Translations under genes and position numbers: made by a program
Part shown: one piece after another, positions 6,814-51,020 of the stretch
Position numbering within the stretch: the first letter of the stretch is position 1
How the letters are laid out: each line of letters begins with the position of its first letter
The notes under the pieces: model-generated
What the model was told of the DNA's origin: nothing
Seen by the model: the letters and a program-made list of their open reading frames with translations, nothing else
Databases searched by the model: none
NCBI RefSeq assembly: GCF_007746795.1
Contig: NZ_CP036343.1
Span: 792,480-856,479 of the forward strand
Direction: 5' to 3'
Length of the DNA: 64,000 nt
From: Gimesia algae
GTDB lineage: Bacteria > Planctomycetota > Planctomycetia > Planctomycetales > Planctomycetaceae

Positions 6814-6961
6814 CGTAGCCCTGAAGCGGTTTTCCTGTGAATTTGTGGTCTTGTTATGTCAGCACGGTGCAGGATTATACACACATCCGGCGTAAATCAG
6901 AAGCATGGCCGGAACAGGGGGCCGATCACTGTTTTTTTTGGGGGAAGGGGAATCAGTGTAG

Positions 6962-7219
6962 TCAGATCAGCCTTAACCAGAGATCAACGTAAGACTGGAA
7001 CAGACTTCGATACGAGGCACTGCACTCGACGGGCCAGCTGAGCGGTGCGTAGAGAAAATTGACGAGCCGAATCTGATCGGGGGACATATAACCATCGGAA
7101 TAACTGAAAATGGCAATTACCGGTCCCACGCTGAGTACATAAATCACCACAAACAAACCCAACATACAACAAAGCGAGCGCAGAATGCTGATGACTTTCG
7201 TTTGGTGATGTGTGGACAT
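6962..7219 (-). CDS. Small one-helix membrane protein, family copy 3
   Basis: 85 residues. One helix (about 17-40) contains VIYVLSVGPVIAI, followed by FLYAPLSWPV and an aromatic end SYVDLWLRLI. It is a clear relative of 3778-4026, 4105-4353 and 10274-10531. It lies alone between dgt and an SMI1/KNR4 gene. No known domain. Confidence 0.72.
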   Translation of the reverse strand: MSTHHQTKVISILRSLCCMLGLFVVIYVLSVGPVIAIFSYSDGYMSPDQIRLVNFLYAPLSWPVECSASYRSLFQSYVDLWLRLI

Positions 7220-7345
7220 GTTCGGATTCCCTTTAGAGTTGCTGATCAGGCAGATAGTTTAACTAATTCTGAAAATCAGGTAAGAGTAATCTCTGCTTTC
7301 CGCGCAGGCAGAGAATGATTTCACTCATAGAACAGGCCACGAAGC

Positions 7346-7978
7346 TTACGAAACGAGCCTGCTCCAGAAGGGGATATTCCGATGCGCAGCGAAATATTGT
7401 GCTTCTGTAAATTCGGCATAACGTTCCCCCGCATACCAGCCTTCTTCGTGCTCACCGAACTCCTGCTCGATATAATCCCACAGATTCTGACCATAATAGA
7501 TGATGTCGGTCTGATGCACCGAAAAGATGGGATTACCGGCTTCGGAAGGAGTCGCGGGTATGTAGCGGTGACTATAGACGGGAATCAATGTGGGAGCCTG
7601 TGACACATACCGATGTGCTATATCAATCGCATCCTGGAGCTCATCTGGTTTTATTCCCCATTCGTCCAGCCAGAACGCATTCTGTTCGATATCAAAGACC
7701 ATCCCCTCCCAGGGCCCGTCGAATCGCTTTTGCAGATCACTTTGATTTCCTGCTCGCCAGTCGGGGAAGGGTTGTCGATTCCCTGCTGTCTTCAGGGAAA
7801 CCGGCAAAGCGATTTGCAGAAACGCCCGAAGATCGGGTGGAAAACAGAAACCAAACGTCGTTTCTATCTGTTCTACTTCCTGATCCGTCAGGCCCGGTCC
7901 GAAGTGAACGCCCCGGTTCTGCATCAACTCAACCGCTGCTCGGATTTCAGATTCAAACGGGCTACTCATCGGTTCCAT
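7346..7978 (-). CDS. SMI1/KNR4 (SUKH) family protein
   Basis: 210 residues. The N-terminal pattern LTDQEVEQIETTFGFCFPPD followed by LRAFLQ is the hallmark of the SMI1/KNR4 fold, and the family aromatic and acidic blocks follow. In bacteria SUKH proteins are often immunity proteins for nuclease toxins, but many are of unknown role and no toxin gene is seen nearby. Its start overlaps the end of the broken lipoprotein gene upstream (7962-8309), so the two were translationally coupled. A second ATG at 7969 is an alternative start. Confidence 0.85.
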   Translation of the reverse strand: MEPMSSPFESEIRAAVELMQNRGVHFGPGLTDQEVEQIETTFGFCFPPDLRAFLQIALPVSLKTAGNRQPFPDWRAGNQSDLQKRFDGPWEGMVFDIEQNAFWLDEWGIKPDELQDAIDIAHRYVSQAPTLIPVYSHRYIPATPSEAGNPIFSVHQTDIIYYGQNLWDYIEQEFGEHEEGWYAGERYAEFTEAQYFAAHRNIPFWSRLVS

Positions 7979-30756: not shown

Positions 30757-31452
30757 CTACTTATTGAGAATTCGTTCCTGCATATGTTTCTCAACCACTT
30801 CAGCTGTCTTGCGAATATGCTGTTCCATCTCTGCCGCGGCCTTATCACAGTCCTGAGACTGCAGGGCGGCAATGATTGCAGTATGATCAGACAGCGCGAT
30901 TTCCTGAGCCTGGCTTTCATTATCGACGACTTCGCGAATCGCCTGTACCAGCGTATTATAACGCTGTAATTCATCCTGCAATCTCATGCTGCCACAATGT
31001 GCTGCAATCAACGAATGCAACCGAATATCCAGTGACATTGCTTTCTGCGACCAGTTGCTATTGCGTTTTTCATTGCTGATCGACACAAACTCATCTGAAA
31101 GTTCCGCCAGAAATCGTGATTCAATTTTCCCGCAAGAAGTTCGGACCGCTTCCACTTCAAGAATCCGTCGCAACTGGTAAATCTCGCGAATCTGGGTGAC
31201 ACCAAATTCCCGCATCACGGCACCCCGATTGGGAAGATTCTCCACAATTCCAATGGACGCCAGTTCGACCAGCGCCTCCCGCACCGGCGTTGCACTCACT
31301 CCAAACTGTTCTGCCAGATTCTGGATAACCATCCGATGCCCAACGGGGAAATCACCGCGGATCACTGCCGCCAGAATTCTCTGTACAACAACTTCGCGAA
31401 TATTCCCCCGAGGCACGAGAGCGAAGGAACCAGGTAGATTGGATGTCGACAT
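30757..31452 (-). CDS. GntR-family regulator (FCD/FadR type)
   Basis: 231 residues. The N-terminal winged helix (about 15-82) contains VVQRILAAVIRGDFPVGHRM, AEQFGVSATPVREALVELAS and the wing PNRGAVM. An all-helical FCD ligand domain follows, with the metal/ligand residues of the family (R in IYQLRRILEVEAV, DIRLHSLIAAHCG, SDHTAIIAALQ). It likely represses a nearby catabolic operon in response to a carboxylic acid or sugar acid. The gene pair directly upstream of its own promoter region is DUF1501/PSD1, on the same strand. Confidence 0.92.
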   Translation of the reverse strand: MSTSNLPGSFALVPRGNIREVVVQRILAAVIRGDFPVGHRMVIQNLAEQFGVSATPVREALVELASIGIVENLPNRGAVMREFGVTQIREIYQLRRILEVEAVRTSCGKIESRFLAELSDEFVSISNEKRNSNWSQKAMSLDIRLHSLIAAHCGSMRLQDELQRYNTLVQAIREVVDNESQAQEIALSDHTAIIAALQSQDCDKAAAEMEQHIRKTAEVVEKHMQERILNK

Positions 31453-31600
31453 AACACTTCCTCAAACAGCCTTGTAAAGGCTTATCATAAATAGACTAAG
31501 ACGTCGTGTATATTATATATGATTCGTTGAGGAGAGAAAAGGAGTGTCTGGAAAGAACTCGAAAGAGGAGGACGACAAAGAAAGCAGGTAACGCCTGGTA

Positions 31601-32992
31601 TCAGGCAATGATGTTTTGTACAACCTCGCCAGCGACATCCGTCAGTCGGAAATCCCGACCGGAATAATGATAGGTCAATCGCTCGTGATTGATACCCATC
31701 AGATGCAAAATCGTCGCGTGCAGATCGTGGACATGAACCTTATCCTGCATCGCGCGGAAGCCAAATTCATCCGACTCCCCATGCACGGTTCCCCCTTTGA
31801 TGCCACCGCCGGCCAGCCACATACAGAATCCGAATGGATTATGATCACGACCGTTGATGCCTCCCTGTGCAGTCGGGGTACGACCAAATTCGCCTCCCCA
31901 GACAACCAGCGTTTCGTCCAGCAGTCCGCGCTGCTTCAGGTCGGTCAACAGTTGTGCGATTGGCTGATCAATGTCTTTACACAAACGTTCATTGCTCTTA
32001 TCGTGATTGCTGTGCGTATCCCAGGGCTGTCGATTCCCATAGTAAACCTGCACAAACCGCACGCCACGCTCACTCAAACGACGAGATAATAAACAGGCCT
32101 TGGAGAACTCACTCTTCCCGTATGCTTCCTGAAGCTTCTCGGGTTCGCGCGAGATATCAAACGCATCGGTCGCCGCGAACTGCATCCGGTAAGCCAGTTC
32201 CATCGATTTGATCCGTGTCTCCAGTTCATTATCGCCGGCTCGTTTTGCCAGATGCTGCTGATTGATCGCCTGAACCAGATCCAGCTGCTTCTTCTGCTCA
32301 GTAGAAGACATCACTTCATTTTTCAGATACGGAATCATCTGTTCGGGAGTCAGGTCTTTATTGTTGATATGTGTTGCCTGATGTTTGCCAGGGAGAAAGG
32401 CACTGCCCCAGAGTTTGGGGCCCACCACTGGTTTACCCGGGCATAACGCCAGGAATCCGGGCAGATTCTGATTTTCTGTTCCCAGTCCGTAAGTCAGCCA
32501 TGATCCCAGACTGGGGCGTGTGGGCGTCAATGTCCCCAGATTCATCATGCATAACGCTGGCGCATGATTCGGGAAGTCAGTGTGCATCGAGCGAATCACT
32601 GCCATGTCGTCGATGTGCTTTGCAATTTTCGAAAAATGCTCTGAGACCGGTATCCCGGATTTTCCCGCTTTAACGAATTTCACCGGGGAAGGCATCAACC
32701 CCATTGTTTTGGATGCAGTCCGAATATTCGCCGAAGCAGGCCGCTGGCCTTCATATTTCTTCAACAATGGTTTCGGATCAAAGGTGTCCATCTGAGAAGG
32801 ACCACCGCTCATAAACAGAAAGATCACTCGCTTCGCTTTGGGGGCGAAATGAGGCGTCTGCTGGGGAACTTTCTGAGAGGCCCCCTCGGCTGAAGCCAGC
32901 ATGCCAGCCAGGCTCATCATGCCAAAGCCACTACCGACTTTCTCCAGGATTTCACGACGATTGAACAGGTCCTGTCCGTTGAAATTCATCAT
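31601..32992 (-). CDS. DUF1501 family secreted protein
   Basis: 463 residues. The N-terminus has a Tat-like start (LFNRREILEKVGSGFGMMSL) followed by AKRVIFLFMSGGPSQMDTFD, then WGGEFGRTPTAQGGINGRDH and the end HDLHATILHLMGINHERLTY with HYSGRDFRLTDVAG. The family has the alkaline-phosphatase/sulfatase-like fold and unknown substrates. It lies 58 bases downstream of the PSD1 gene 33051-36284, the usual planctomycete pairing, so they form an operon. Function is probably periplasmic. Confidence 0.93.
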   Translation of the reverse strand: MMNFNGQDLFNRREILEKVGSGFGMMSLAGMLASAEGASQKVPQQTPHFAPKAKRVIFLFMSGGPSQMDTFDPKPLLKKYEGQRPASANIRTASKTMGLMPSPVKFVKAGKSGIPVSEHFSKIAKHIDDMAVIRSMHTDFPNHAPALCMMNLGTLTPTRPSLGSWLTYGLGTENQNLPGFLALCPGKPVVGPKLWGSAFLPGKHQATHINNKDLTPEQMIPYLKNEVMSSTEQKKQLDLVQAINQQHLAKRAGDNELETRIKSMELAYRMQFAATDAFDISREPEKLQEAYGKSEFSKACLLSRRLSERGVRFVQVYYGNRQPWDTHSNHDKSNERLCKDIDQPIAQLLTDLKQRGLLDETLVVWGGEFGRTPTAQGGINGRDHNPFGFCMWLAGGGIKGGTVHGESDEFGFRAMQDKVHVHDLHATILHLMGINHERLTYHYSGRDFRLTDVAGEVVQNIIA

Positions 32993-33050
32993 AGCTCAGA
33001 TCTCGTTATTAATTCGAAAGAATCGCTGACTGACTGGAATCACTCCATCA

Positions 33051-36000
33051 TCAGTCAACATACATCATTTCATTACTGCACAATAACGCCAGGCAGTATC
33101 GCTGCCAGCTTGTCAATTGTTTCGGGTCGATATCCTGACGTCCTTCATAGACTCCGTTATGTTTGTTACCCGTGATATCTGCCGCCTGTGACAAGTTTGG
33201 ATTGTCTGTCCGCAAAGGCCAGCAGGAAAGGGGATCGGAAGCCAAAATCGAAGCCACATAATCTGCATGCGCCAGTTGATCCTGTTTCAGTTTTGCAGCA
33301 GCGAAATGTTTCTGCACTTCCTCTGTATTCAAAACACGATTGAAAACGGCCACTGCTCCCAGTTGTCCCTGGAAATTCGAGAAATTATCATTGCGGCCGG
33401 CGATGATCAACTCCGCCACACCATCTGCATACCCGGGTTCTGCTTCGCCTATGATTTCCGGTTTAGGGTCGCCATTCAGATAGACGGCAATCTGCTTCTG
33501 ATCGCGAATCAACACCACATGATTCCACGTACCTGGCTGAATCACCGTCGTTCCAAATAAGGAATCCCGCTTCAAATCGCCGTTATAAAAGAACAGGCGT
33601 CCGGCTTTTTTCGGTCGATACTTCCCGGCAATTCCCAGATGATCTCCAGCAGCCTTCGCAGCAGAATCTTTCCCCCGCGAGAAGAAGTAGCCAGTAATAA
33701 TCCGCTGCTCATTGGGAATCTGGTTCTTGACCCAGAGCTCCACCGAGTAGGAATCTCCCAGCGATTTCACATCTGCCTTCATTCGCTTGCCGGCAAATGT
33801 GGGAATCTGCTCGATTTGATTGTCTGACTCACCCGCAGTATCACTGTTTTCCAGGAATTTCAGACCAATCTGCATTTCGGACGAAGTCGGTTCCCGCGAG
33901 AACAATAATTGATAAACACCATCAATCCGCTTTTCAGAAGACTCACCTTCCAGTCGGGTCGCCAGTTGCTGTGCCTGCTGTCTGACAAAAGGAGAATTCA
34001 ACACAAACAGCTGCTGTAGCGGTGTCGTCGTTTTTGAGCGACGAGCCGCATGAATCGCGGGATCGGGAAAATCATAAGACTGCAGGAACGTGCTCAATTT
34101 ATGCCGGGAAACCGTGGCATAAATGCCACGTCGCTGAAACGTGGGATCATCAATATCACCAGAGGGACCTGCCTGTCTCGCATCCAAATTATTTCCTGCT
34201 GCCAGTAATGCATCACGATAAATCTCGGCTTCCAGTCGCCGACGATTGAAATACGAGAGCAACCTGTTGTTTGGATCCTGCTTCTTTTGAGTTTCCGACA
34301 GTTCGATATTGGAGGACTGTTGATACGTCGCCGACAGCATGATCAGTCGGTGCAGTTTTTTCAGCGACCAGCCCTCATCCATAAACCAGACAGACAGATC
34401 GTCCAGCAGTTCCGGATGACTGGGCAGGGAACCGGTTTTCCCATAATTACTCGGCGTATCGACCAGTCCTTCCCCAAAATGATGCTGCCAGATCCGATTC
34501 ACCATCACCCGAGCGGTGAGGGGATTCTCGCGACTGGCGATTTTCTGAGCCAGCTCCAGACGACCACTGCCTTTCTGGAATGGTTCCGGCTGTCCCTCAG
34601 ACAGCACACGTACAAAACGACGGGGAACCAGATCTCCCAGATTGGCCGCATTTCCTCGAATGAATACATTCAGGTCGCGAGGCTTGGGATAATACACGAT
34701 CTTCATCTTATCTTCAGTGATCTCTTCCACCCGCACCTGTTCTTCGGTCAAAGCATTCGCCAGAGGCAACTCAAAACCGGGTGTCGATTTCTTGATCTCT
34801 GCCGCCTGCGCTTTATTCTCTTTGATCGTCTTATTATGAGCGGCGATCAACGCTGTATTCTGCTTCAATTCTTCCGGAGGAACCGGAAATTTGATTGTCG
34901 TCTGTTTTTTCAGATCCGGTCGCGAAGCAATCAACGGGAACTCGGCTTTGCCGGCCTGTTTGATGATCTGCTTCAGCTCTGTATTCCGCTTCGTCAATGT
35001 TTTGACTTTCGCAGCCAGGTCTGTATTCACTTTGTTTAAAGCTTCTACTTTATCTCGGGCTGGTTGAGTCTTCGCGACTTCTTCATCAGGGATAATCGGT
35101 CGCGTCGTCTGCCTGATAGATGCGAAGACACCGGCGATGCCATAATAGTCTTCCACGGTTAACGGATCATATTTGTGATCGTGACAGCGGGCACAGGCCA
35201 TCGTCAGGCCCAGTAATCCCCGACACAAACTGTCAACACGATCTTCCCAGTCATCTGCATAGCGATTTTCCAGAGTGAGCTGTGACAGAGCGACTTCCTT
35301 GTGATAGGAAGGCCCCAGCCCCATGAACCCCAGGGCAGGGTAGTCCTCGGGCCCCGTCTCCGGCAGAAAGTCAGTTGCCAGCTGACGAATCACAAATTCA
35401 TCGTAAGGCATATCTTCATTGAACGCCTTGACCACCCAGTCACGATAACGATAGGCGTAAGGAAACGGACCATTGTGTGGGCCCATGTTCGTATTATCTT
35501 CCGCGTAACGCGCGACATCCAACCAGTGTCGACCCCAGCGTTCGCCGTAGTGGGGTGACTGTAACAGCTGATCGATCACCCGAGCATACGCGTCCGGAGA
35601 TTGATCTTTCACAAACGCATTTACCTCAGCAGGCGTGGGAGGCAGACCGATCAAATCAAAATACGCACGACGAATCAGAGTCTGTTTCGTAGCAGCGGGC
35701 GCAGGCGAGAAGCCTTTCGCTTCCTGCGCTGCTAAAATGAATGTATCAATTTTATTTTGAGGCCAGGCTTTCTGTTTCACCTTGGGAGCAGGGTAATGGC
35801 GTGGAGATTGAAACGACCAGAACTCGCGGGCCTTGTCGAAATCGATTTCCGTCTTTGCCGTTTTCTTTGATTTCTCTGTCCGCGGGTCAGCGGCCCCCAT
35901 CGCGATCCATTTTTCGAAGTCCGCAATAATCGCATCAGACAGCTTCCCCTTGGGAGGCATCTGATAGCTGTCTTCGCCATACTTCATCGTTTCCAGCAGC

Positions 36001-36284
36001 AGGCTCTCATCTGGTTTTCCAGGAACCAGAGCCGTACCCGAATCACCGCCATCCAGCAGTCCCTGCTGTGAATCAACAAGCAGACTGCCTTTCAGGTTTT
36101 TCGAATCCGCGGAATGGCATTCGTAACAATGCTTTATCAGAACCGGTCGGATCTTCTTCTCGAAGAAATCCAACTGCTGCTGAGTCGGTTCAGAACCGGC
36201 AGCCGAGAGCGAAACAGCGGAGCAGAGAAACAGGCTCGTGCATACGATGACAGCTGTCACTTTTCGCAAAGTTTTCATAGTCAT
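33051..36284 (-). CDS. PSCyt1-DUF1549-DUF1553 protein with nested LamG domain
   Basis: 1077 residues. After a signal peptide comes the planctomycete cytochrome C domain (about 38-135) with heme motif CYECH and LVPGKPDESLLLE. DUF1549 (about 165-400) has RRAYFDLIGLPPTPAEV, YGERWGRHWLDVARYAED and [11 protein letters not shown] (a second CxxCH). DUF1553 (about 575-1077) has NPLTARVMVNRIWQHHFGEG and TPLQQLFVLNSPFVRQQA. A LamG/concanavalin-like domain (about 835-1005: SYSVELWVKN, GTWNHVVLIRDQKQIAVYLN) lies just before the DUF1553 end motif ALLCSNEMMYVD. Probably a periplasmic glycan-processing or redox protein; activity unproven. Confidence 0.93.
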   Translation of the reverse strand: MTMKTLRKVTAVIVCTSLFLCSAVSLSAAGSEPTQQQLDFFEKKIRPVLIKHCYECHSADSKNLKGSLLVDSQQGLLDGGDSGTALVPGKPDESLLLETMKYGEDSYQMPPKGKLSDAIIADFEKWIAMGAADPRTEKSKKTAKTEIDFDKAREFWSFQSPRHYPAPKVKQKAWPQNKIDTFILAAQEAKGFSPAPAATKQTLIRRAYFDLIGLPPTPAEVNAFVKDQSPDAYARVIDQLLQSPHYGERWGRHWLDVARYAEDNTNMGPHNGPFPYAYRYRDWVVKAFNEDMPYDEFVIRQLATDFLPETGPEDYPALGFMGLGPSYHKEVALSQLTLENRYADDWEDRVDSLCRGLLGLTMACARCHDHKYDPLTVEDYYGIAGVFASIRQTTRPIIPDEEVAKTQPARDKVEALNKVNTDLAAKVKTLTKRNTELKQIIKQAGKAEFPLIASRPDLKKQTTIKFPVPPEELKQNTALIAAHNKTIKENKAQAAEIKKSTPGFELPLANALTEEQVRVEEITEDKMKIVYYPKPRDLNVFIRGNAANLGDLVPRRFVRVLSEGQPEPFQKGSGRLELAQKIASRENPLTARVMVNRIWQHHFGEGLVDTPSNYGKTGSLPSHPELLDDLSVWFMDEGWSLKKLHRLIMLSATYQQSSNIELSETQKKQDPNNRLLSYFNRRRLEAEIYRDALLAAGNNLDARQAGPSGDIDDPTFQRRGIYATVSRHKLSTFLQSYDFPDPAIHAARRSKTTTPLQQLFVLNSPFVRQQAQQLATRLEGESSEKRIDGVYQLLFSREPTSSEMQIGLKFLENSDTAGESDNQIEQIPTFAGKRMKADVKSLGDSYSVELWVKNQIPNEQRIITGYFFSRGKDSAAKAAGDHLGIAGKYRPKKAGRLFFYNGDLKRDSLFGTTVIQPGTWNHVVLIRDQKQIAVYLNGDPKPEIIGEAEPGYADGVAELIIAGRNDNFSNFQGQLGAVAVFNRVLNTEEVQKHFAAAKLKQDQLAHADYVASILASDPLSCWPLRTDNPNLSQAADITGNKHNGVYEGRQDIDPKQLTSWQRYCLALLCSNEMMYVD

Positions 36285-36623
36285 GTCTACGATGTTAAAG
36301 TCAGGTGGGAAAAAGCCGCGCAGGCTGGGGATGATTCAACTGTATCTCGTTAATTCACAATCAGATACATCAAGTCATTTTTATATCGTATCGGGAATTC
36401 CGTCGGATAACAATATAATATTTAAAAAAGGCTCAGCAATAGGGAAAGATTCACAGAATTCCACTGTTTCACAGTATTTACTCTGATAACCTGTATTGAA
36501 CCTCCCCCAACGCGACGTTAGTCTTGAAAATACATGTTGGTCAAGAAAACAACCGGCATGCAGGGCATTGTGATCCAGGTCGATTTACTCTGATTTAAAA
36601 CACCTCTGACGTAAGGACTTGCC
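36285..36623. other. Divergent intergenic region PSD1 / BNR protein
   Basis: An AT-rich stretch holding the leaders of both genes. A ribosome site (AAGGA) precedes the ATG at 36624. I see no small gene and no repeat family member. Confidence 0.4.
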
Positions 36624-37814
36624 ATGATTCCTCAAGTGGACCTCTCTGCAAAACTGGCAGTGATCTTCGCCCTGAGCTTCAGCAGTCACATCAACTGCCT
36701 GAACGCAGCCGATCCCCCCAGACAGGCTCCCAAAGCTCCCGGGTTCACCATTCCTTATATCGATCTCGATGCTCAGTCGCATCGCCAGACCGTCGTTGAT
36801 CGCGAAGAAAATCAGTACCTCGGCCATCCTACCACCGTTCTTCTTGAAGACAACAAAACCATACTCTGCGTTTATCCCAAAGGTCACGGGAAGGGGGGCA
36901 TTGTTTATAAACGCTCCACCGATGCCGGAAAAACCTGGAGCGATCGTCTGCCCACTCCCGCTTCCTGGGCCACCTCGCGCGAAGTCCCCACGCTGCATCG
37001 CGTTGTCGATGCCTCCGGTAAAAAACGTATCATCATGTTCTCCGGACTGTATCCCGCTCGCATGGCAGTCACCGAAGATGACGGCAAAACCTGGAGCGAA
37101 CTCAAACCGATCGGCGACTGGGGCGGCATCGTCGTCATGGGTGGTGTCGAACCACTCAACACCGGCAAAGGCCATTACATGGCTCTGTTCCACGATGACG
37201 GTCGCTTCATCTCTAATGATTCCAAACAGGAATCACCGGTCGTGTTCACCCTGTATAAAACACTCTCCACCGATGGCGGCTTAACCTGGTCCGCCCCGGA
37301 AGCGATTCACAAATCATCCGAATATCATATCTGCGAGCCCGGCATCATTCGCTCGCCCGATGGCAAACAACTCGCCGTCCTCCTCCGCGAAAACAGTCGC
37401 CGCCACAATTCACAAATCATCTTCTCCAACGATGAAGGTAAAACCTGGACCGCACCCCGCGATCTACCCGGTTCATTGAACGGCGATCGCCACACCGGCA
37501 AATACGATCCCGTCAGCGGTCGTTTGCTCATCTCCTTTCGCAGTAACACACCCAAAGGGCACACCGCTCCCACCGAAGGAGACTGGGTCGCCTGGGTGGG
37601 AACTTACGATGATCTCGTCAACGGCAAAGAAGGCCAGTACCACGTCCGTCTCAAAGACAACACCAAAGGCGCCGACTGCGCCTATCCCGGCGTCGAAGTC
37701 CTCCCCGATGGCACCTTCATTATCACCACCTACGGTCACTGGGAAAAAAACAAAGCTCCTTTTATCCTCAGTATCCAACTCAAACTGGCGGAACTAGACG
37801 AACTGGCAAAATAA
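36624..37814 (+). CDS. Secreted BNR/sialidase-fold protein
   Basis: 396 residues with a signal peptide (about 1-28, LAVIFALSFSSHINCLNAAD). Propeller blades with Asp-boxes: STDAGKTWSDRL, TEDDGKTWSEL, STDGGLTWSAPE and SNDEGKTWTAPR. Also an FRIP-like HPTTVLLED start and R in LLREN. It belongs to the exo-alpha-sialidase-like group common in planctomycetes; the true substrate is open. It is divergent from the PSD1 gene and convergent with the MFS transporter. Confidence 0.87.
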   Translation: MIPQVDLSAKLAVIFALSFSSHINCLNAADPPRQAPKAPGFTIPYIDLDAQSHRQTVVDREENQYLGHPTTVLLEDNKTILCVYPKGHGKGGIVYKRSTDAGKTWSDRLPTPASWATSREVPTLHRVVDASGKKRIIMFSGLYPARMAVTEDDGKTWSELKPIGDWGGIVVMGGVEPLNTGKGHYMALFHDDGRFISNDSKQESPVVFTLYKTLSTDGGLTWSAPEAIHKSSEYHICEPGIIRSPDGKQLAVLLRENSRRHNSQIIFSNDEGKTWTAPRDLPGSLNGDRHTGKYDPVSGRLLISFRSNTPKGHTAPTEGDWVAWVGTYDDLVNGKEGQYHVRLKDNTKGADCAYPGVEVLPDGTFIITTYGHWEKNKAPFILSIQLKLAELDELAK

Positions 37815-37847
37815 TCAATCAACGGTTGCACTAAACCTCTTCCAACA

Positions 37848-37906
37848 AAAAAGGGGTGGTCCCGAATGTAATTCGGGATTGCCGCAGGCAACAGGAAGCT
37901 GACAGT
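37848..37906 (+). repeat. Partial repeat-B-like element
   Basis: GGGGTGGTCCCGAATGTAAT and TTCGGG form the same hairpin type as the repeat-B left end. It is followed by TTGCCGCAGGCAACAGG. It ends near the stop of the MFS gene. Confidence 0.5.
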
Positions 37907-38063
37907 GTAAGCCCGCAATGAAGTGTAACTTTCCCATCTTCAATCTCATTCACAAACTACAGGTCCATAAATCCTGTATTGACAGGTAGTCAATATCAGG
38001 TGAGCACACCAACGAGTGTGCGTACCACTTGAACCAACGTGCCATTCCAAGTCTGAAAAGACA

Positions 38064-39986
38064 CTACGCTGTTTCCAACATCCCATCCTCATCATCCACA
38101 ACCAACTTCCGGGAAGAATCCACAAACAGCGACGCCACCCCCGCAATGAAAAAAGCAATCGCACACGTGACAAACGCCATGTCCCAGTGATGCTCCTCGC
38201 CACTCGCGGTATTCACGGTAATTACTGCAATCATCAACGAAGGCGCGACAGCCGCCCCCAGGTTGCCCCACATGTTTCCCCAGCCCAGCACCGAACCCAC
38301 GTGCTTGCCGGCGATATCCTGGTTGAACGCCCACATCGCAGGCGAACCAAAGTCAGTAGAAAACGCCACAATCGAAAACATGATCACGGAAGTCCAGGGA
38401 GAGATATCCAGCAGACAGACCAGGTACGCCGCCATCGCAGTAAATCGCGAGAGCGCAATCGGCAGCACACGACTCCAGCGCAAACTGATCCGTTTCATCA
38501 ACCAGTCTGTCACTTTCCCTCCTGACAAAGTTCCAAACCAGCCCACTGCCAAAGCAATCGTCACCATTTTCCCGCGTTCTTCCAGCGGAACCTGGTACTC
38601 CTCATCCAGAAATCGTGGCAGCCACGTCACCAGAAACAGCCAACCCACATTCGTGCAGAATTGCGACAACGACAGCAGCCACAAACTCTGGTTTTTCACG
38701 ATCGCCTTAAAGGGAATCCCGCCGATCTGCTTCGAATGATCTTTATCCGACTCCAGACGACCATGTTCAATCAGTGCGAGTTCCTGTTCAGAACAGGCGG
38801 GATGCGCACGCGGATAATCGCGAATCACCCACCAGAAAATCCCGGCAATCAGAATTCCTACCAGGCCGTAGGTCATCATCATCTTACGCCAGCCTTTTCC
38901 CTGCACCTTGCGTACGTGGGCTGAATAGCGTGCTTCAAACAGCAATCGATTCAACCGGGAGCGTTGCTCAACATTAAGCTCTCCAGGACTCACATTTAAC
39001 AGCTGTTCCGCCTGCTGATTGAGCGTCAACCCTTCAAAGTCTGCCGGATCATAAAGCTGCTGTTCCTGCAAAATGGGATTCAGATTCTCCAGGAACGAAC
39101 TCTCTGCTTTCGTAAATGATGCCACCAGCGATTTAGCTTCAACTGCCGCATCAGCGGCAGCAGTTGCTTCTGTCACCGCTGACTCCGCTGCATTGGCCGC
39201 ATTCTTAGCTTGGGTTTCAGCCAGGACTTTATTCTCACCACTGGCATTTGCAGCTATGGTTGCAGCATCCTTAGCTGCAATCTTAGCCCTAGTCGCAGCT
39301 TCAGCGGCAGCATCCGCCTTAGCGGCAAGAGCCTCCGCATTGAGATAGTTTCTACTTTCCGACGTCAGTCCCCCATAGATCTTTGTTTCAAATTCCTGTT
39401 TCTCATCCACTCGTTCCAGAAACGTCGTCGCCAGGCCGTGCGGGTTCATAATGTCCCCCGACTTCAGATCAGAAGACTCTGTCATGGGCACATAGAGGAT
39501 AATCAGAAACGCAGTCAACACCGGCGCCAAGGCACCACCAATCCGTCCGCCGACAGTAACCATACTGCTGGCAAAGCCGCGCTCTGTCAAAGGCATCCAC
39601 TTACTGACAATGTTGGCACTCGTGGGATAGGCACCGGCCTGACTCAGACCAAAGCCCAGTCGAAAGATCAGCAGCATGATGAAACCGGTCGCCAGCCCCG
39701 TCATCGCCGTAAACAGGGACCACATCAGAATGTAAATCGTCAACATTTTTCGCGCACCGAAGCGGTCACTGAACCACCCGGAAGGGACCTGGCATAATGC
39801 ATAAGACACAAAAAAAGAACCGAGCAGAATACCGATCTGCTCGTCACTCAATCCCAGCTCATCTTTGATAAAGACCTCGGCGAAGGAGATGCAGAACCGG
39901 TCCAGGTACAACAGCACCGCCATCAGCATGCAGACAAAGATCACACGATAACGAACATACGAACTGGTCGGTTCCACACTGGCCAT
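38064..39986 (-). CDS. MFS transporter (ACS-like) with large Ala-rich insert
   Basis: 640 residues against about 430 for the family. The N-terminal helices carry DRFCISFAEVFIKDELGLSD and the loop motif GWFSDRFGARKML, typical of the anion:cation symporter group. Between predicted helices 5 and 6 (about 168-366), on the periplasmic side by topology, lies an insert. Its core (216-290) is an Ala-rich helical repeat (AAKADAAAEAATRAKIAAKD, NAANAAESAVTEATAAADAA), probably coiled-coil. Normal helices follow from about 371. The transported solute is unknown; the neighbouring BNR and PSD1 genes suggest a sugar acid. No terminator is evident. Confidence 0.88.
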   Translation of the reverse strand: MASVEPTSSYVRYRVIFVCMLMAVLLYLDRFCISFAEVFIKDELGLSDEQIGILLGSFFVSYALCQVPSGWFSDRFGARKMLTIYILMWSLFTAMTGLATGFIMLLIFRLGFGLSQAGAYPTSANIVSKWMPLTERGFASSMVTVGGRIGGALAPVLTAFLIILYVPMTESSDLKSGDIMNPHGLATTFLERVDEKQEFETKIYGGLTSESRNYLNAEALAAKADAAAEAATRAKIAAKDAATIAANASGENKVLAETQAKNAANAAESAVTEATAAADAAVEAKSLVASFTKAESSFLENLNPILQEQQLYDPADFEGLTLNQQAEQLLNVSPGELNVEQRSRLNRLLFEARYSAHVRKVQGKGWRKMMMTYGLVGILIAGIFWWVIRDYPRAHPACSEQELALIEHGRLESDKDHSKQIGGIPFKAIVKNQSLWLLSLSQFCTNVGWLFLVTWLPRFLDEEYQVPLEERGKMVTIALAVGWFGTLSGGKVTDWLMKRISLRWSRVLPIALSRFTAMAAYLVCLLDISPWTSVIMFSIVAFSTDFGSPAMWAFNQDIAGKHVGSVLGWGNMWGNLGAAVAPSLMIAVITVNTASGEEHHWDMAFVTCAIAFFIAGVASLFVDSSRKLVVDDEDGMLETA

Positions 39987-40624
39987 AAGTCATTCAGCTT
40001 TCATTCAGAGTCGGTGCGCATTGATTGAGTGGCAGCAGTATAACAGCAGATTTTCCTGAAAACGAGCATCAAATCCGTTCCTCTCTCCCAGTTTCTCAAC
40101 GAAATTCACTGCACTTCACCTGAACTTACTGGCGTCTCTTCAGCTTGACTGCCAGCCGCACCTCGATAACTTATGCGATAAGCGCGTCGCGCGCGTGGCT
40201 TAATTTTCGATCAGGTCTATCGTCATGAGAATTCAGCAGTTACCACAATCGAGTCTCAAACCGCATCAACCACTTTCATTCCCTGTTACTCTCTATGTGA
40301 AAGGTTTTCCGTGCTGTCATAGTAGATTATATTCAATGTCACGAACCGTGTTAGTTCACTCTCTTCACTACCAGATCACCGCAGTTATCGACGCACATCG
40401 GCACGCCATCGCTGCCTGTCACACCCATATCGCCCATGGATCGTCCCTATATCAAAACATATCAACCGCTCCTTTTATCCACCTGCTCAAAACAGACCGT
40501 TATAGTTCACGATCAATCAAATTGAACGCTCTCATTTCGATCTGGTCAACTGGACGTATTTTTCTTACTATTCGTCGGCGCGATCTCACGAACGGATTTA
40601 ACATCGGCAACGAAAGGATTCACG
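39987..40624. other. Gap without a gene
   Basis: 638 bases with no supported gene. A plus-strand frame from 40225 runs into the next gene in another frame and reads as noise. A GC-rich CGCGTCGCGCGCGTG patch lies near 40185. AAAGGA is a likely ribosome site just before 40625. Confidence 0.4.
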
Positions 40625-41587
40625 ATGCTCCCTCGTCATCGAATTTATTTAGTCGCATTTCTGTTTCTGGGCAGCGTGTTACCCACAACACAGGCAGCCG
40701 ATCAGCAGCCCCTGACGATCCAAGTCATCAACCAGACCTGGAAAGCACGACGCGAGCGCCTGCAGGCGATGCGGATCGAACTTTCTGTGGATATCACGCG
40801 CAGCACACTTCCTTATATGAGATTTGCTGCAGGTGGTGACGATGAAGAAGTACCGCTGACGGAAGAAGAAACACTGCATTATCTGAATCAGACAGTCAAT
40901 TTTAAAACACACTATTCACTGATCCTGGATAGTCCCCGCATCCGCTGCCGTCACTGGGGAGATTTTCCAAGCCCCCAGTTAGAGTCTATGCAAAACCTTG
41001 ACTTAACCGTGACAACCGACGGAAAAACCGCTGCCCTTGCCTATACATACAAAGGCATCCGCAACCTGACTATCTTTAAATCACCGGAACCTCCCATGAG
41101 TGCTCTTTCGAATCTGACTCTGCTTCGCTGGTCACTGCTGGCAGGCGATTCTGTTTGTGGATTCACACTTGATCAATTCAGAGTCTGCCCGCAGCTCGAA
41201 CAGGTACAGGGCATCCCTTGCACGGTCCTGGAAAAAAACGGTACGCATGGGTTACAACGCTTGTGGGTCTCACCGACAGATCGGGAATGTGTCGTCATGA
41301 AATATTCGGTTGAGCGATCCGGCCAATCTCTCTCTCAGCATGATTTCCATTATGTCGATATCCCGAACGAAGGTCCGGAACCGAAATACTGGACCACAAA
41401 AGTGTATCAACATAAATCGAACCAGGTTATCTTCACTTACGGTCGTCGCATCAATGTTGATTCTTTTGAGTCCCGGGCGACCGTCACCCCCGCCGACTTT
41501 CAACTGGAATTAACAACCGGTACGCACGTGACAGATACCAGAAAACGAAATCCCCAGGGCGGGGAACTCATCTATGATGTGAAATAA
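40625..41587 (+). CDS. Secreted hypothetical protein
   Basis: 320 residues with a signal peptide (LVAFLFLGSVLPTTQAAD), then a beta-rich body with Cys pairs (FTLDQFRVCPQLEQVQGIPC). The pattern resembles LolA/outer-membrane-lipoprotein-sorting-like planctomycete proteins only weakly (VDIPNEGPEPKYWTTKVYQ). Function unknown. It is 36 bases upstream of the alcohol dehydrogenase gene and may be co-transcribed. Confidence 0.72.
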   Translation: MLPRHRIYLVAFLFLGSVLPTTQAADQQPLTIQVINQTWKARRERLQAMRIELSVDITRSTLPYMRFAAGGDDEEVPLTEEETLHYLNQTVNFKTHYSLILDSPRIRCRHWGDFPSPQLESMQNLDLTVTTDGKTAALAYTYKGIRNLTIFKSPEPPMSALSNLTLLRWSLLAGDSVCGFTLDQFRVCPQLEQVQGIPCTVLEKNGTHGLQRLWVSPTDRECVVMKYSVERSGQSLSQHDFHYVDIPNEGPEPKYWTTKVYQHKSNQVIFTYGRRINVDSFESRATVTPADFQLELTTGTHVTDTRKRNPQGGELIYDVK

Positions 41588-41623
41588 ACAATTTCTCTCC
41601 TCCTTCAATCTGGAACGCTCACC

Positions 41624-42754
41624 ATGTTAACCCGCGCCGCTGTTCTCCATGAAATGCAACGTCCGACTCCCTACGCGATTTCCAAGCCGCTGGTCATTGA
41701 AGAACTCAATCTCGCCGATCCCGGCCCCGGTGAAGTCCTCGTGGAAATGGCCGGCGCCGGCCTCTGTCACTCCGACCTCTCCACGATTGACGGTTCGCGC
41801 CCCCGCGTGATGCCGATGGTGATGGGACACGAAGCCAGTGGCATCGTCCGTGAAGTCGGTCCCGGCGTTCACGATCTCCAGCCCGATGATCACGTCGTCT
41901 TTTCGTTCGTCCCCCTCTGTGGTCACTGCATTCCCTGCGCCACGGGTCGCCCCGCGTTATGCGAACCCGGCGCAGCAGCAAATACCGCCGGCACATTACT
42001 TTCCGGCCGCCGTCCTTTCAGTAGCATCTCTGGTCAGGAAATCAACCACCATCTCGGCGTCGCCGCCTTTGCCGAACACACGGTCGTCGCCCAGGAATCG
42101 CTGATCAAAATCGATTCCCAACTCCCTCTCAGCACCGCGGCCCTGTTTGGCTGCGCCGTGATGACGGGCGTCGGCGCGGTCGTCAATACAGCGAAGATAG
42201 AACCCGGTTCCAGCGTCGCCGTCTTCGGTCTGGGTGGCGTCGGCTTAAGTACCGTCATGGGCGCCCGCGCCGCGGGGGCTGAAACCATCTTCGCCATCGA
42301 TCTGCTCCCCGATAAACTCGAACGCGCCACCCAGGTCGGCGCGACACATACGATCAACGCCAGTGAAGAAGATCCGGTCCAGCTGATCAAAGACATCCAG
42401 AACGGCGTCGATTATACCTTCGAAAGCGTTGGTAACGAGTTGGTCCTCCAGCAGGCTTACGCTGCCACTAAAAGAGGCGGCACCACCATCACCATCGGCC
42501 TGCCACATCCCGGCAAAATGTTCTCCGTCCCCGCCGTCAGCCTGGTCGCGGAAGAACGCACGATCAAAGGCTCCTACATGGGCTCCGCCGTCCCCCGCCG
42601 CGATTTACCCCGCTTCATCGCCGCGTACCAGGCCGTTCTGTTCCCCGTCGACAAACTGCTGACCAGTACCATTCAGCTGGCTGAAATTAATGAAGCCTTC
42701 GACGCCCTCGCCACCGGCACCGCCGTTCGACAGGTGATTACGTTTGAGAAGTAA
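41624..42754 (+). CDS. Zinc-dependent alcohol dehydrogenase
   Basis: 376 residues, medium-chain dehydrogenase fold. Catalytic zinc: C48 in GLCHSDL, H69-E70 in MGHEASG. Structural zinc: C99, C102, C105 and C113 (CGHCIPCATGRPALC). Rossmann motif GLGGVGLSTV near 198. It resembles the class III/mycothiol-type branch of NAD-dependent alcohol dehydrogenases. The natural alcohol cannot be told. Codon use is much richer in GCC/CGC than in the islands. Confidence 0.92.
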   Translation: MLTRAAVLHEMQRPTPYAISKPLVIEELNLADPGPGEVLVEMAGAGLCHSDLSTIDGSRPRVMPMVMGHEASGIVREVGPGVHDLQPDDHVVFSFVPLCGHCIPCATGRPALCEPGAAANTAGTLLSGRRPFSSISGQEINHHLGVAAFAEHTVVAQESLIKIDSQLPLSTAALFGCAVMTGVGAVVNTAKIEPGSSVAVFGLGGVGLSTVMGARAAGAETIFAIDLLPDKLERATQVGATHTINASEEDPVQLIKDIQNGVDYTFESVGNELVLQQAYAATKRGGTTITIGLPHPGKMFSVPAVSLVAEERTIKGSYMGSAVPRRDLPRFIAAYQAVLFPVDKLLTSTIQLAEINEAFDALATGTAVRQVITFEK

Positions 42755-46382: not shown

Positions 46383-49300
46383 ATGCCTGTACCAATACGG
46401 AACCTGATCCTGCCTGCAATCATCACGGTCTGCCTGAGTTCGTCTTTCTGGACGACACTTCAGACCGTTTCGGCAGCCGAGCCTTCGAAAAAAACGCCGC
46501 GCATCGAATTCAACCGCGACATCCGCCCGATCCTCTCTGAAAAATGTCTGCACTGTCACGGCCCCGATCCCGCTACCCGGGAAGCCGACCTGCGACTCGA
46601 TGATCCGACAGACGTGAAACAGCCTCGCGACGGTTATGCCATCATCAATCAAAAGTCACCTGCAGACAGTGAACTGCTCGAACGACTGCTGACATTAGAC
46701 ACCGATCTCAAAATGCCTCCCGCCGATTCCGGAAAAGAAATTTCCGCAGCGGAAATCAAATTGATACAGGCCTGGGTCGAGCAGGGGGCAGAGTATCAGC
46801 AGCACTGGTCCTTCATTCCGCCACAACGGCCCGAATTGCCTGCGGTAAAAGAAACGAACTGGTCTCAAACTCCCCTTGATCATTTCGTACTCGCTCGTCT
46901 GAAACGGGAACAGTTACCACCGTCCCCCCGCGCGGATAAAGCCACACTCTGCCGTCGGCTTTCACTTGATCTGACCGGTCTACCTCCCACGCTCGACGAA
47001 CTGGAAACGTTCCTCAACGATCATACTCCCCAGGCGTACGAGAAGCTGGTCGACCGTCTGCTTAGCTCTCCCCATTACGGCGAACACCGGGCCCGCTACT
47101 GGCTCGACGCCGCCCGTTACGCCGACACCAGCGGATATTTCACCGACGAAGCATGGGAGATGTGGCACTGGCGGGACTGGGTCATCAACGCCTTCAATCA
47201 GAACATGCCCTTCGATCAGTTTACCATCGAACAACTGGCGGGTGACCTGCTACCCACGCCCACCCAAGACCAGCTCATCGCCACCGGCTTCCACCGCAAT
47301 CACATGACTACCTTGGAGACTGGCATCATCGATGAAGAATACCGCGTCGAATACATCGTCGACCGGATCGATACCACGTCCACCGTCTGGATGGGCCTGA
47401 CCGCCGGCTGTGCCCGCTGCCACGATCACAAATACGACCCGCTCTCCCAGAAAGAGTTCTATCAGCTCTTCGCCTTTTTCAATAACACACCCGAAACCGG
47501 CAACACCCACACGGTCGGCAATGCCAAACCGATTCTCAAGATTCCCACGAAAGATTATCTCAACCGCGAACAGCAGCTCAAAGACGAACTCGCAGCGCTG
47601 GAACAAGCACACCAACAGCGCGAGACACAACTCAAATCGCAACAGAAACAGTGGGAAGAAACTGCGCGCAACAATCTCACGTCTCCGGCCTCCGATCAAC
47701 TGGTGATCCACGAACCGCTGGACGAAATCACCAACAGCAAGTCGCTGACTTCAATGGGACCGGTCGAAATCAAACCGGGGTTTGTCGGTTCCGCTGCGAA
47801 CTTCGACGGCACCGCACTGTTGGAAAGTAACACGCCATTCCGCTTCACACGCGACAAACCGTTTACGCTGGCTGCCTGGATCAACCCCGCCTCCGGTGGC
47901 CCCATCTGTCTGTTCTCTCAGAACGACGATACCAACCAGCTCCGCGGCTTCGATATCATGCTCCGCAAAGGCAAACTCTCCGTCCACCTGATCCACAAAT
48001 GGAATTCCAACGCCATCCAGGTCGTCACCGACGCCGGCATCCGCACCGGTCGCTGGCAACATCTGCTCGTCACCTATGACGGCTCCTCCTCCGCAGCCGG
48101 CGTTCACATTTTTATCAACGGCGAACCGCAGACCACCTCCGCCCCTTACGACAGACTCACCGGCGACATTGCCGTCGACGAACCATTCCGCATCGGCCGC
48201 CGCAGCACCAGTGCCTTCTACAAAGGCGCACTCGACGACCTGCGAATTTATCAGCGTCCATTCTCACCCGACGAAGCCCGGGAACTCGCCGACGGACAAT
48301 TCCTCAACGGCCTGCTTTCCATCCCTGCCGAAAAACGCACTACGCAACAGCAGCAGGAACTCCGCGACTATTTCCTTAAAAACGCCGCCCCTGATTCCCT
48401 GCGTACCGCCGAGAATCAACTGGCTAAACTCCGCAGCCGACTCACCAAGCTGCAGAAGAACATTCCCACCACGATGATCATGCATGAAAACGAAAAACCG
48501 CGGGAGACCTTCGTTCTGCTGCGAGGCGTTTACGATCAGCATGGCGAAAAAGTGACCGCCGCTGTGCCCCAGGTCCTGCCCGCATTCTCCACGCAACTCC
48601 CCACCAATCGTCTCGGCCTGGCCCGCTGGCTCACCAGTCCCGATCATCCGCTGACCGCCCGCGTGTATGTGAACCGTCTCTGGCAGCAGTTGTTCGGTGT
48701 CGGCCTCGTCAAAACCGTCGGCGACTTCGGTTCGCAGGGGGAATGGCCCAGTCATCCGGAACTGCTCGACTGGCTGGCCGTCGAATTCCAGCAAAGTGGC
48801 TGGGATGTCAAACACCTGCTGAAACAGATCGTCCTCTCGTCCACTTATCAACAATCCTCCCGCGTGACCGATGAACTTTACGAACGCGATCCCGAAAACC
48901 GTCTGCTGGCCCGCGGCCCCCGTTTCCGTCTCGACGCCGAAACCGTCCGCGATAACGCCCTGCAGATCAGCGGCCTGCTCGTGGCGAAGCAGGGGGGACC
49001 GAGCGTCAAACCATATCAGCCCCCCGGCCTCTGGGAAGCGGTCTCTTACGATGGCAATGTCACTTACAAACAAAGCACTGGCGACGGACTCTACCGCCGC
49101 AGCCTGTATACTTACTGGAAGCGTCAGAGCCCACCCCCCGGGCTGATGGCCTTCGATGCCCCCACACGCGAAACCTGCACCGTCTCTCGCCCTCGCACCA
49201 ACACGCCGCTGCAGGCGCTCGTATTAATGAACGATCCTACTTACATCGAAGCGGCTCGCGTCCTTGCCACGCAGACATTAAAACGACAGGCAACCGCTGC

Positions 49301-49547
49301 CGAACGCATCGAGTTCCTGTTCCGCGCCGCCACCAGTCGCCCGCCCACTAAAGCCGAACAGCAGATTCTCAGCCGCATCCTCCAGCAGCAAACGAGCATC
49401 TATCAACACAACCCCGCAGCCGCTGCAAAACTGATCAATGTCGGCGAAACTCCGGTCGACAAAACACTGAAACCAAACGAACTCGCTGCCTGGACGATGC
49501 TGGCCAGCATGATTTTCAACATGGATGAAACCCTGACCAAACAATAA
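46383..49547 (+). CDS. PSCyt1-DUF1549-LamG-DUF1553 protein
   Basis: 1054 residues. Signal peptide; cytochrome C-like domain with [20 protein letters not shown] (heme motif CxxCH). DUF1549 (about 160-390) has [35 protein letters not shown] and [12 protein letters not shown] coiled segment is followed by LamG (about 445-620: [45 protein letters not shown]). DUF1553 (about 730-1040) has [20 protein letters not shown] and [20 protein letters not shown]. Here LamG lies between the two DUFs, unlike in 33051-36284. It forms an operon with the DUF1501 gene 24 bases downstream. Confidence 0.93.
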
Positions 49548-49571: not shown

Positions 49572-51020
49572 ATGCAGATAGACCTGAATCAATTACAACA
49601 CGATTTCACCCGCCGCCAGTTCTTCCGCTCCAGCGCAACCGGCATCGGTGCGGCGGCCCTGGGTTCGCTGCTGAACCCCGATCTGTTCGCCAGCGAAACA
49701 CCGTCCGTCAGCAGTTCGCATTTCCCGGGCAAAGCCAAACGCGTGATCTATCTCTTCATGCATGGCGGCCCGTCACAGATGGAACTGTTCGACTATAAAC
49801 CCCGGCTCAAACAGTTGAATTCTGAGCCGCTCCCCGATTCCGTTCGCGGCGATCAGCGTTTGACCGGCATGACTTCCGGCCAGAAGTCGTTCCCCATCGC
49901 CGCCCCCAATCAGTTCCGCTTTCAGCAGCATGGCGAAAGTGGCACCTGGGTCAGCGATGCCCTGCCGCACTTCGCGAAAGTCATCGACGATGTCTGCGTG
50001 ATCAAATCGATGCACACCGAAGCCATCAACCACGACCCCGCCGTCACCCTGATGCAGACCGGACACCAGCAACCGGGCCGCCCCAGTTTCGGCGCCTGGT
50101 CGAGTTACGGCTTAGGCAGCGAGAACCAGAATCTCCCCTCGTTCGTCGTCCTCATCTCCGATGGCAGCGCGTCACGTCCTGCTGACCCGCTGTATGCGCG
50201 CCTGTGGGGCACCGGCTTTCTGCCTTCCAGCCATCAGGGGGTCAACTTCCGCAAGAACGGCGATCCCGTGCTCTACCTCTCCAATCCGCCGGGCATCAAC
50301 GACGCCAGCCGTCGCGGCATGCTGGATGGGCTCGCCCAACTCAATCAGCGACAGTTCGACGATTACCGCGATCCCGAAATCCAAACCCGCATCGCGCAGT
50401 ACGAAATGGCGTATCGCATGCAGACCTCGGTCCCCGATCTGACCGACTTCTCCAGTGAAACCGAACAGACGTTCGACCTCTACGGCGACGCCTCCCGCAA
50501 ACCGGGCACCTACGCCGCCAACTGCCTGCTCGCTCGTCGCATGGCAGAGCGGGGCGTGCGATTCATTCAACTCTACCACAGAGGCTGGGACCAGCATTAC
50601 AACCTCCCCAGCGATCTCCGCCTGCAATGTGGCGACATTGACCAGCCCACCGCAGCACTGCTGACCGACCTCAAGCAGCGCGGTCTGCTCGACGACACCC
50701 TCATCGTCTGGGGCGGCGAATTTGGTCGCACGATCTACAGCCAGGGCACCCTCACCAGCACCGATTACGGCCGAGACCATCACGGCCGCTGCTTCACCAT
50801 GTGGCTGGCCGGCGGCGGCATCAAGCCCGGCATCTCGTATGGTGCGACCGACGACTTCTGCTACAACGTCGCCGAAAACCCCGTCCACGTCCACGATCTC
50901 AACGCGACGCTGCTACATTGTATGGGCCTGAACCACGAACGCCTGATCTTCAAACACCAGGGCCGCGACTACCGCCTGACCGACGTCCACGGCACCGTGA
51001 TTGACAAGATCCTCGCATAG
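49572..51020 (+). CDS. DUF1501 family secreted protein
   Basis: 482 residues. Tat-like start (FTRRQFFRSSATGIGAAALG), then AKRVIYLFMHGGPSQMELFD, VWGGEFGRTIYSQG, YGRDHHGRCFTMWL and the end HDLNATLLHCMGLNHERLIF. It is translated 24 bases after the PSD1 gene, the usual partner. Residues differ from 31601-32992 enough to suggest a different substrate. Confidence 0.93.
   Translation: MQIDLNQLQHDFTRRQFFRSSATGIGAAALGSLLNPDLFASETPSVSSSHFPGKAKRVIYLFMHGGPSQMELFDYKPRLKQLNSEPLPDSVRGDQRLTGMTSGQKSFPIAAPNQFRFQQHGESGTWVSDALPHFAKVIDDVCVIKSMHTEAINHDPAVTLMQTGHQQPGRPSFGAWSSYGLGSENQNLPSFVVLISDGSASRPADPLYARLWGTGFLPSSHQGVNFRKNGDPVLYLSNPPGINDASRRGMLDGLAQLNQRQFDDYRDPEIQTRIAQYEMAYRMQTSVPDLTDFSSETEQTFDLYGDASRKPGTYAANCLLARRMAERGVRFIQLYHRGWDQHYNLPSDLRLQCGDIDQPTAALLTDLKQRGLLDDTLIVWGGEFGRTIYSQGTLTSTDYGRDHHGRCFTMWLAGGGIKPGISYGATDDFCYNVAENPVHVHDLNATLLHCMGLNHERLIFKHQGRDYRLTDVHGTVIDKILA

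Follow-up and report, generated by a model that had tools for sequence, protein, structure and literature searches.

The Rickettsia palindromic elements (RPE) reportedly go back to a description by Ogata et al. in 2000. RPE are 105–146 bp long, palindromic, bear terminal inverted repeats and also occur in intergenic DNA (PMC2229807). PARCEL motifs consist of 25-residue tandem repeats with dyad symmetry of the DNA (PMC2996958), while domains that interrupt other domains had a median size of ~115 residues in a survey (PMC13114784). Here, we compare these systems and inteins with an insert in a transporter of Gimesia algae encoded in the window, i.e. the whole stretch of 64 000 nucleotides that was analyzed. 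Profile comparisons demonstrate, at the level of sequence, that the core of this insert (~125 residues) is homologous to a module residing inside unrelated planctomycete proteins.

Like RPE, the module is coding DNA that occurs in frame within numerous genes that are unrelated and often conserved, and it is tolerated and translated together with its host. It differs from RPE in that its core spans ~345–390 bp, is non-palindromic, lies in open frames and encodes a predicted folded domain conserved at the protein level. While in-frame insertions into many unrelated ORFs were observed, a palindrome, terminal repeats, a length of 105–146 bp and intergenic copies were not; the module resembles RPE in effect and lacks the features by which they are defined. 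With PARCEL it shares the dispersal of a protein-coding motif among unrelated ORFs and the link to membrane proteins and mobile elements, but it is one ~125-residue domain, mostly present in a single copy per host, and no tandem repeats were detected at the locus. Inteins similarly interrupt conserved proteins in frame and at clean sites. In contrast to inteins, the module possesses no splicing motifs (a C-terminal His-Asn and a Cys, Ser or Thr at position +1 were sought at the ends of the copies and not found), is predicted to be all-helical and would be tolerated rather than excised. As with inserted domains in general, it interrupts other domains and is typical in size, but it represents one family that, among the sequences sampled, was restricted to one phylum and its virus-like contigs and whose hosts, cytoplasmic and extracytoplasmic, belong to at least 25 families.

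The transporter and its insert

The transporter frame begins with an ATG and includes its stop codon within the coordinates given in Table 1. Its comparison with Pfam yielded MFS_1 (1e-49, 169.8 bits at a curated cut-off of 33.4) in two stretches, the first covering residues 20–162, such that both halves of the 12-TM core are matched. The best NCBIfam entry was TIGR00893 (D-galactonate/ACS, 1.5e-65), which at 221.7 bits against a curated cut-off of 395 is to be read as the nearest subfamily only. The closest solved structure is DgoT (6e9o, Z 44.2). Within the MFS, the protein is hence closest to the anion:cation symporter (D-galactonate) group.

Both proteins have the same 12-helix core, but the TM5–TM6 loop of DgoT is short while ~190 residues are inserted in the window transporter. 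Residues 157 and 365 of the latter pair with DgoT residues 175 and 183, leaving about 200 extra residues, located at about 165–362, exactly between TM5 and TM6. This alignment bears out an earlier note, made from the sequence alone, in which the protein was described as an ACS-type transporter with a ~200-residue insert between helices 5 and 6. In MFS transporters the TM5–TM6 loop is periplasmic, and the extracytoplasmic location that the earlier note had assigned to the insert agrees with this topology. A paralogue in the same genome (453–462 aa) does not contain the insert. Orthologues across the Planctomycetaceae, surveyed as the note had suggested, carry inserts of 100–220 residues whose ends are conserved, above all ...RLNRLLLEa.f...iRKvy..GWRp. 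An assembly or frame error as the source of the insert is ruled out by its retention in orthologues: all intact orthologues checked within Gimesia possess a ~134-residue form, and two further genomes of the genus have the long Ala-rich form as well.

Table 1. Features of the transporter gene in the window; residue numbers are those of the transporter
Feature	Position	Strand	Basis
MFS transporter ORF with insert, ACS / D-galactonate-transporter-like	38064..39986	(-)	640 aa, read from 39986 to 38064; profile matches and fold match to DgoT
N-terminal transporter half TM1–TM5, residues 11–164	39495..39956	(-)	MFS_1 stretch 20–162; AF2 helices 11–164
Inserted module, residues about 171–362, periplasmic TM5–TM6 loop	38901..39476	(-)	Non-MFS-only profile aligned to 171–362; AF2 of 163–364 alone
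Ala-rich helical hairpin (predicted) within module, residues 209–287 (net addition about 218–281)	39126..39362	(-)	Orthologue comparison, AF2; L001, L005, L038/L035 only
Signature helix ...RLNRLLFEA... of module, residues 339–353	38928..38972	(-)	Conservation; AF2 helix 339–353
C-terminal transporter half TM6–TM12, residues 363–640	38067..38900	(-)	MFS_1, DgoT alignment, AF2, fold match

Predicted fold of the module

The structure of the full-length transporter was predicted with AlphaFold2 (AF2) from a 30-sequence alignment (pLDDT 87.6), and the model contains an ordered insert with a helical hairpin. Modeled alone, residues 163–364 reach a pLDDT of 90.8 and a pTM of 0.81, i.e. better values than the whole protein, and are all-helical. 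As AF2 folds the insert confidently and orthologues conserve it, we can dismiss the alternative that it is disordered and not conserved. The models, which were built from the family alignment, predict that the module folds autonomously. Since the only two β-bridge residues of the insert model are located near its two ends, these ends would lie adjacent to each other. A search of the PDB found no clear relative of the module; the closest matches to the insert model had a best Foldseek E-value of 0.84 and VIA Z-scores of at most 10.7, mostly over the helical hairpin 53–132 only.

Homologues of the insert in unrelated proteins

A profile built from the MFS inserts only (A2) was run on 392 genomes of the phylum and matched many non-MFS planctomycete proteins with E-values down to 4e-16, the E-values of all genome searches being per genome. 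Conversely, a profile derived from 11 non-MFS copies aligned to a short Gimesia transporter end to end (1.2e-18) and to residues 171–362 of the window protein (2.5e-13, Z=10,000), and returned zero matches among 2,727 reversed and 2,727 shuffled ORFs. The cross-host alignment (A3) comprises ~125 positions with the pattern (S)(S)(L/F)L..xDi.D...L...L.......vw..L...........LN.ll....LY....f..i.L..ea..LL......L......RLNRLLLEaaFP.eI. Within the signature helix, R347 and E351 are invariant among the MFS members, and its N and R are conserved to >90% across all hosts.

Using A3 at E<=1e-4, we detected the module in 79 of the 392 genomes; these searches covered the Planctomycetota, and many of the host genomes are fragmented MAGs. 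Genomes in which all candidates were scored contain up to about 12 copies. The window genome (single contig, 7.93 Mb) has one only, namely the transporter insert. Nineteen module members searched against Pfam and NCBIfam gave nothing below 0.01 in the former and no match at 0.01 in the latter, and a literature search found no described module or family with such a spread. The module is a previously unannotated family for which no existing entry was found.

Hosts and insertion sites

Some 75 proteins other than MFS transporters, assigned to at least 25 Pfam families, harbor the module in their interior. Among 83 non-MFS copies that were extracted, 75 are interior and seven are located at the C-terminus. 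According to Pfam, the hosts include members of the SSF, SNF, cytosine-permease, nucleoside, DctM (TRAP), AI-2E, TLC, RND and VTT families and a second kind of MFS, MalG- and OppC-type permeases, ABC-2 permeases, a GldG-like ABC auxiliary protein, SecA, DNA topoisomerase I, Ser/Thr kinases, a sigma-70 factor, a UvrD-like and a PRK/uridine-kinase-type protein, Baseplate J, LptC, ResB, FtsX, MotA/ExbB, a CHASE2 cyclase and cytochrome c. Both cytoplasmic and extracytoplasmic proteins are among them.

In four hosts, both flanks of the module align normally to the solved homologue. SecA is interrupted between the TDIVLG motif and GGLH, topoisomerase I (TopA) between positions 266 and 284 in the numbering of the E. 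coli protein, an Mhp1-like permease between 232 and 289 and an RND pump between 821 and 840. The SecA site could be compared in its filled and its empty state. The filled site of genome G532 reads ...MMPLTLC-[SPFRPADM...AYPQEIAP]-ESVSALGGLH, while three genomes of the same family (G527, G518 and G178) read ...PLKLCERVADLGGLH, ...PLRLCESVAELGGLH and ...PMHMCETVAELGGLY, respectively. In these empty sites the residues that flank the module are contiguous, with neither loss nor duplication at the protein level, and the alignment thereby shows a clean insertion site as far as the protein sequence tells. TopA likewise contains the module in G591 and lacks it in G587 of the same family.

The ABC-2 permeases of several planctomycete families (L096, L102, L105, L120, L122, L128 and L195) carry the module directly after TM1, and this insertion seems to be old and inherited vertically. 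A propeller-like C-terminal region is also present in several of these permeases.

Insert alleles and the Ala-rich hairpin in Gimesia

The Ala-rich helical element at residues 216–290 that had been noted before is 44% Ala and was confirmed by the AF2 model, in which helices 209–247 and 251–287 are joined by a tight turn (pLDDT ~90). It is therein predicted to be an intramolecular helical hairpin and not an oligomerizing rod. The closest Gimesia orthologues have a 134-residue insert without the Ala-rich stretch, and the long ~198-residue insert is restricted to G126, one MAG (L035/L038) and the window genome. The Ala-rich part thus lengthens 3 of the 15 Gimesia orthologues by a net 64 residues, and this stretch and the remainder of the insert have separate histories. 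Neither a DNA tandem repeat at the locus nor a related repeat elsewhere in the genome (nothing below E 0.94) was found for the Ala-rich segment.

Synonymous divergence (dS, given for TM1–5/insert/TM6–12) differs between the insert and its flanks. It amounts to 0.09/0.48/0.19 between the window gene and that of G136, its nearest relative, and to 0.48/1.95/0.54 between G126 and G141. The insert is closer than the flanks in two pairs of long forms (1.06/0.67/0.99 and 0.86/0.51/1.28), while the remaining pair of long forms, from the window and L038, shows roughly equal values (0.55/0.51/0.41). In the tree of the flanks, a single clade of long forms is rejected (p-AU 2.5e-6) and three state changes are required. 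The tree of the shared insert parts, by contrast, unites the long forms (91/99) with a single state change, and the pairings of the flank tree are rejected (p 0.036 and 0.019). The deviating insert dS and the conflicting trees therefore indicate, on the basis of sequence comparison, that homologous recombination has transferred insert alleles, long as well as short, from one Gimesia species to another. Such swapping would use the conserved transmembrane flanks, and the module would have gained its 64-residue hairpin later, within Gimesia. With a dN/dS of about 0.1–0.2 in most Gimesia pairs, the insert evolves faster than the membrane core yet under purifying selection. The orthologous transporter of G150 (C1:64975-66665; L041, L055) is split into two frames of 499 and 154 aa, i.e. 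it carries a frameshift or is a broken gene.

Signs of movement

For 20 of 76 copies the nearest other copy resided in the same genome, compared to 4.3 expected, with orthologous hosts and same-protein pairs excluded; none of 5000 label shuffles reached 20, and these counts rest on one sampling of genomes. Mean amino acid identity among copies is 28% within and 22% between genomes. A permease of G250 contains two tandem copies that are 64% identical, and plain tblastn with a permease of G223 retrieved the module in other G223 proteins with E-values to 1.5e-20. The divergence of the copies implies that conservation must act at the protein level, as would also fit an ordinary but very promiscuous domain.

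All matches listed by six-frame searches at E<=1e-4 lie in a stop-free open frame, and one weak match with a stop was seen in the six-frame scoring of candidates. Palindromic or MITE-like DNA was considered as well: in 58 copies, the RNA folding energy and the longest inverted repeat equaled those of the adjacent host DNA. The copies also showed no foreign base composition (GC3 difference of -0.008 relative to the host). We saw no near-identical and no recent copies with identity at the DNA level, and no transposase or integrase was tied to the module. Since DNA-level identity, transposase or integrase and inverted repeats are lacking and GC3 equals that of the host, the jumps of the module are old, with no mechanism seen, and the evidence speaks against a currently active DNA element.

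Tblastn searches of sequenced plasmids and phages with one module copy each found none. Two virus-like IMG/VR contigs (L207 and L208), found by a profile-derived scan, carry the same module gene, a large tail-region ORF (L208:1048-3741:+) beside a tape-measure-like gene.

Weighing the explanations

We estimate at roughly 60% the probability that the insert is one copy of a 110–130-residue, self-folding, all-α module whose coding sequence entered the interior of genes for many unrelated Planctomycetota proteins, in frame and unspliced. This coding sequence would move as a unit at a low rate, candidate routes being phage-borne copies and illegitimate or homologous recombination. Hosts may tolerate the module owing to its independent folding and the proximity of its termini, which would allow insertions to survive, and a site in a surface loop would leave the host fold undisturbed. 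The module would stay in the mature protein. The transporter would then have acquired its insert long ago and, under purifying selection, retained it as an appendage in the periplasm off the transport path. We infer that the module spread as a mobile coding cassette, phages possibly being one vehicle. The wider proposition that mobile coding cassettes operate phylum-wide, bringing complete folded, non-splicing domains into unrelated and even essential cytoplasmic hosts with phages as a possible carrier, is tentative, and we place it somewhat below even odds. The seven C-terminal copies are positioned as a normal fused domain would be and count against a cassette.

The main rival is an adaptor that binds a common planctomycete partner or structure, has been recruited adaptively and tethers or regulates the transporter. 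The retention of the module in family-wide transporter orthologues with conserved residues under purifying selection, the polar near-invariant N and R of RLNRLLLE across hosts and the abundance of membrane and envelope proteins among the hosts are all consistent with such a role, but the hosts (SecA, TopA, sigma-70, PRK-type kinase, cytochrome c, permeases) share neither a pathway nor one side of the membrane, related genomes encode module-free versions of the same host and the distribution is patchy (79/392 genomes), so that we consider this reading unlikely. The earlier note had instead proposed a transporter-specific periplasmic coiled coil for oligomerization or for contact with a cell-surface partner. 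The location in the periplasmic TM5–6 loop and the long, confidently predicted Ala-rich helices would suit this idea; against it, the module is homologous to inserts of unrelated proteins, and the Ala-rich part is a predicted intramolecular hairpin absent from 12 of 15 Gimesia orthologues. Because most Gimesia orthologues are devoid of it, the Ala-rich part cannot be the general function, and a cell-surface partner does not define the module, which also resides inside the cytoplasmic SecA, TopA and sigma factor. We therefore regard the coiled coil as improbable. Still less credible is a self-removing element, intein-like or excised by a protease and absent from the mature protein. Although its in-frame, clean-edged insertion into essential, highly conserved proteins is reminiscent of inteins, the copies end in AYPQEIAKS-like sequences rather than His-Asn and show no constant Cys, Ser or Thr at +1. 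The Hint domain of inteins is β-rich, as opposed to the all-helical fold predicted here.

If the inserted-module reading is correct, the mobile coding elements that keep entering unrelated genes, essential ones included, comprise whole folded domains besides short peptides and self-splicing inteins. The sites of the module would constitute a natural catalogue of insertion-tolerant positions in dozens of proteins, and the module itself a ready insertion-tolerant scaffold for protein engineering. It would also explain unexplained extra stretches in planctomycete proteins, and the question for the transporter would shift from the role of one loop to the role of the module everywhere.

Genomic neighborhood

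The transporter gene lies in a neighborhood (30760–42751) that is conserved in Gimesia and encodes a GntR/FCD regulator, DUF1501, PSD1, a BNR-repeat protein, the MFS transporter and a Zn-dehydrogenase; its conservation did not extend to the other genera inspected. Judged by gene content, it would fit the use of sugar acids, with the substrate not identified by it. The window contains two pairs of PSD1/PSCyt (DUF1553/DUF1549) and DUF1501 genes (46383–49544 with 49572–51017, and 33054–36284 with 31604–32992), and both PSD1 proteins have Laminin_G_3 domains. A 320-aa ORF without Pfam match is located at 40625–41584; some Gimesia lack a match to it at the corresponding position, and in G136 two relatives lie adjacent to each other (L057:5582-6667, 82% identical to it, and 6734-7699, 41% identical).
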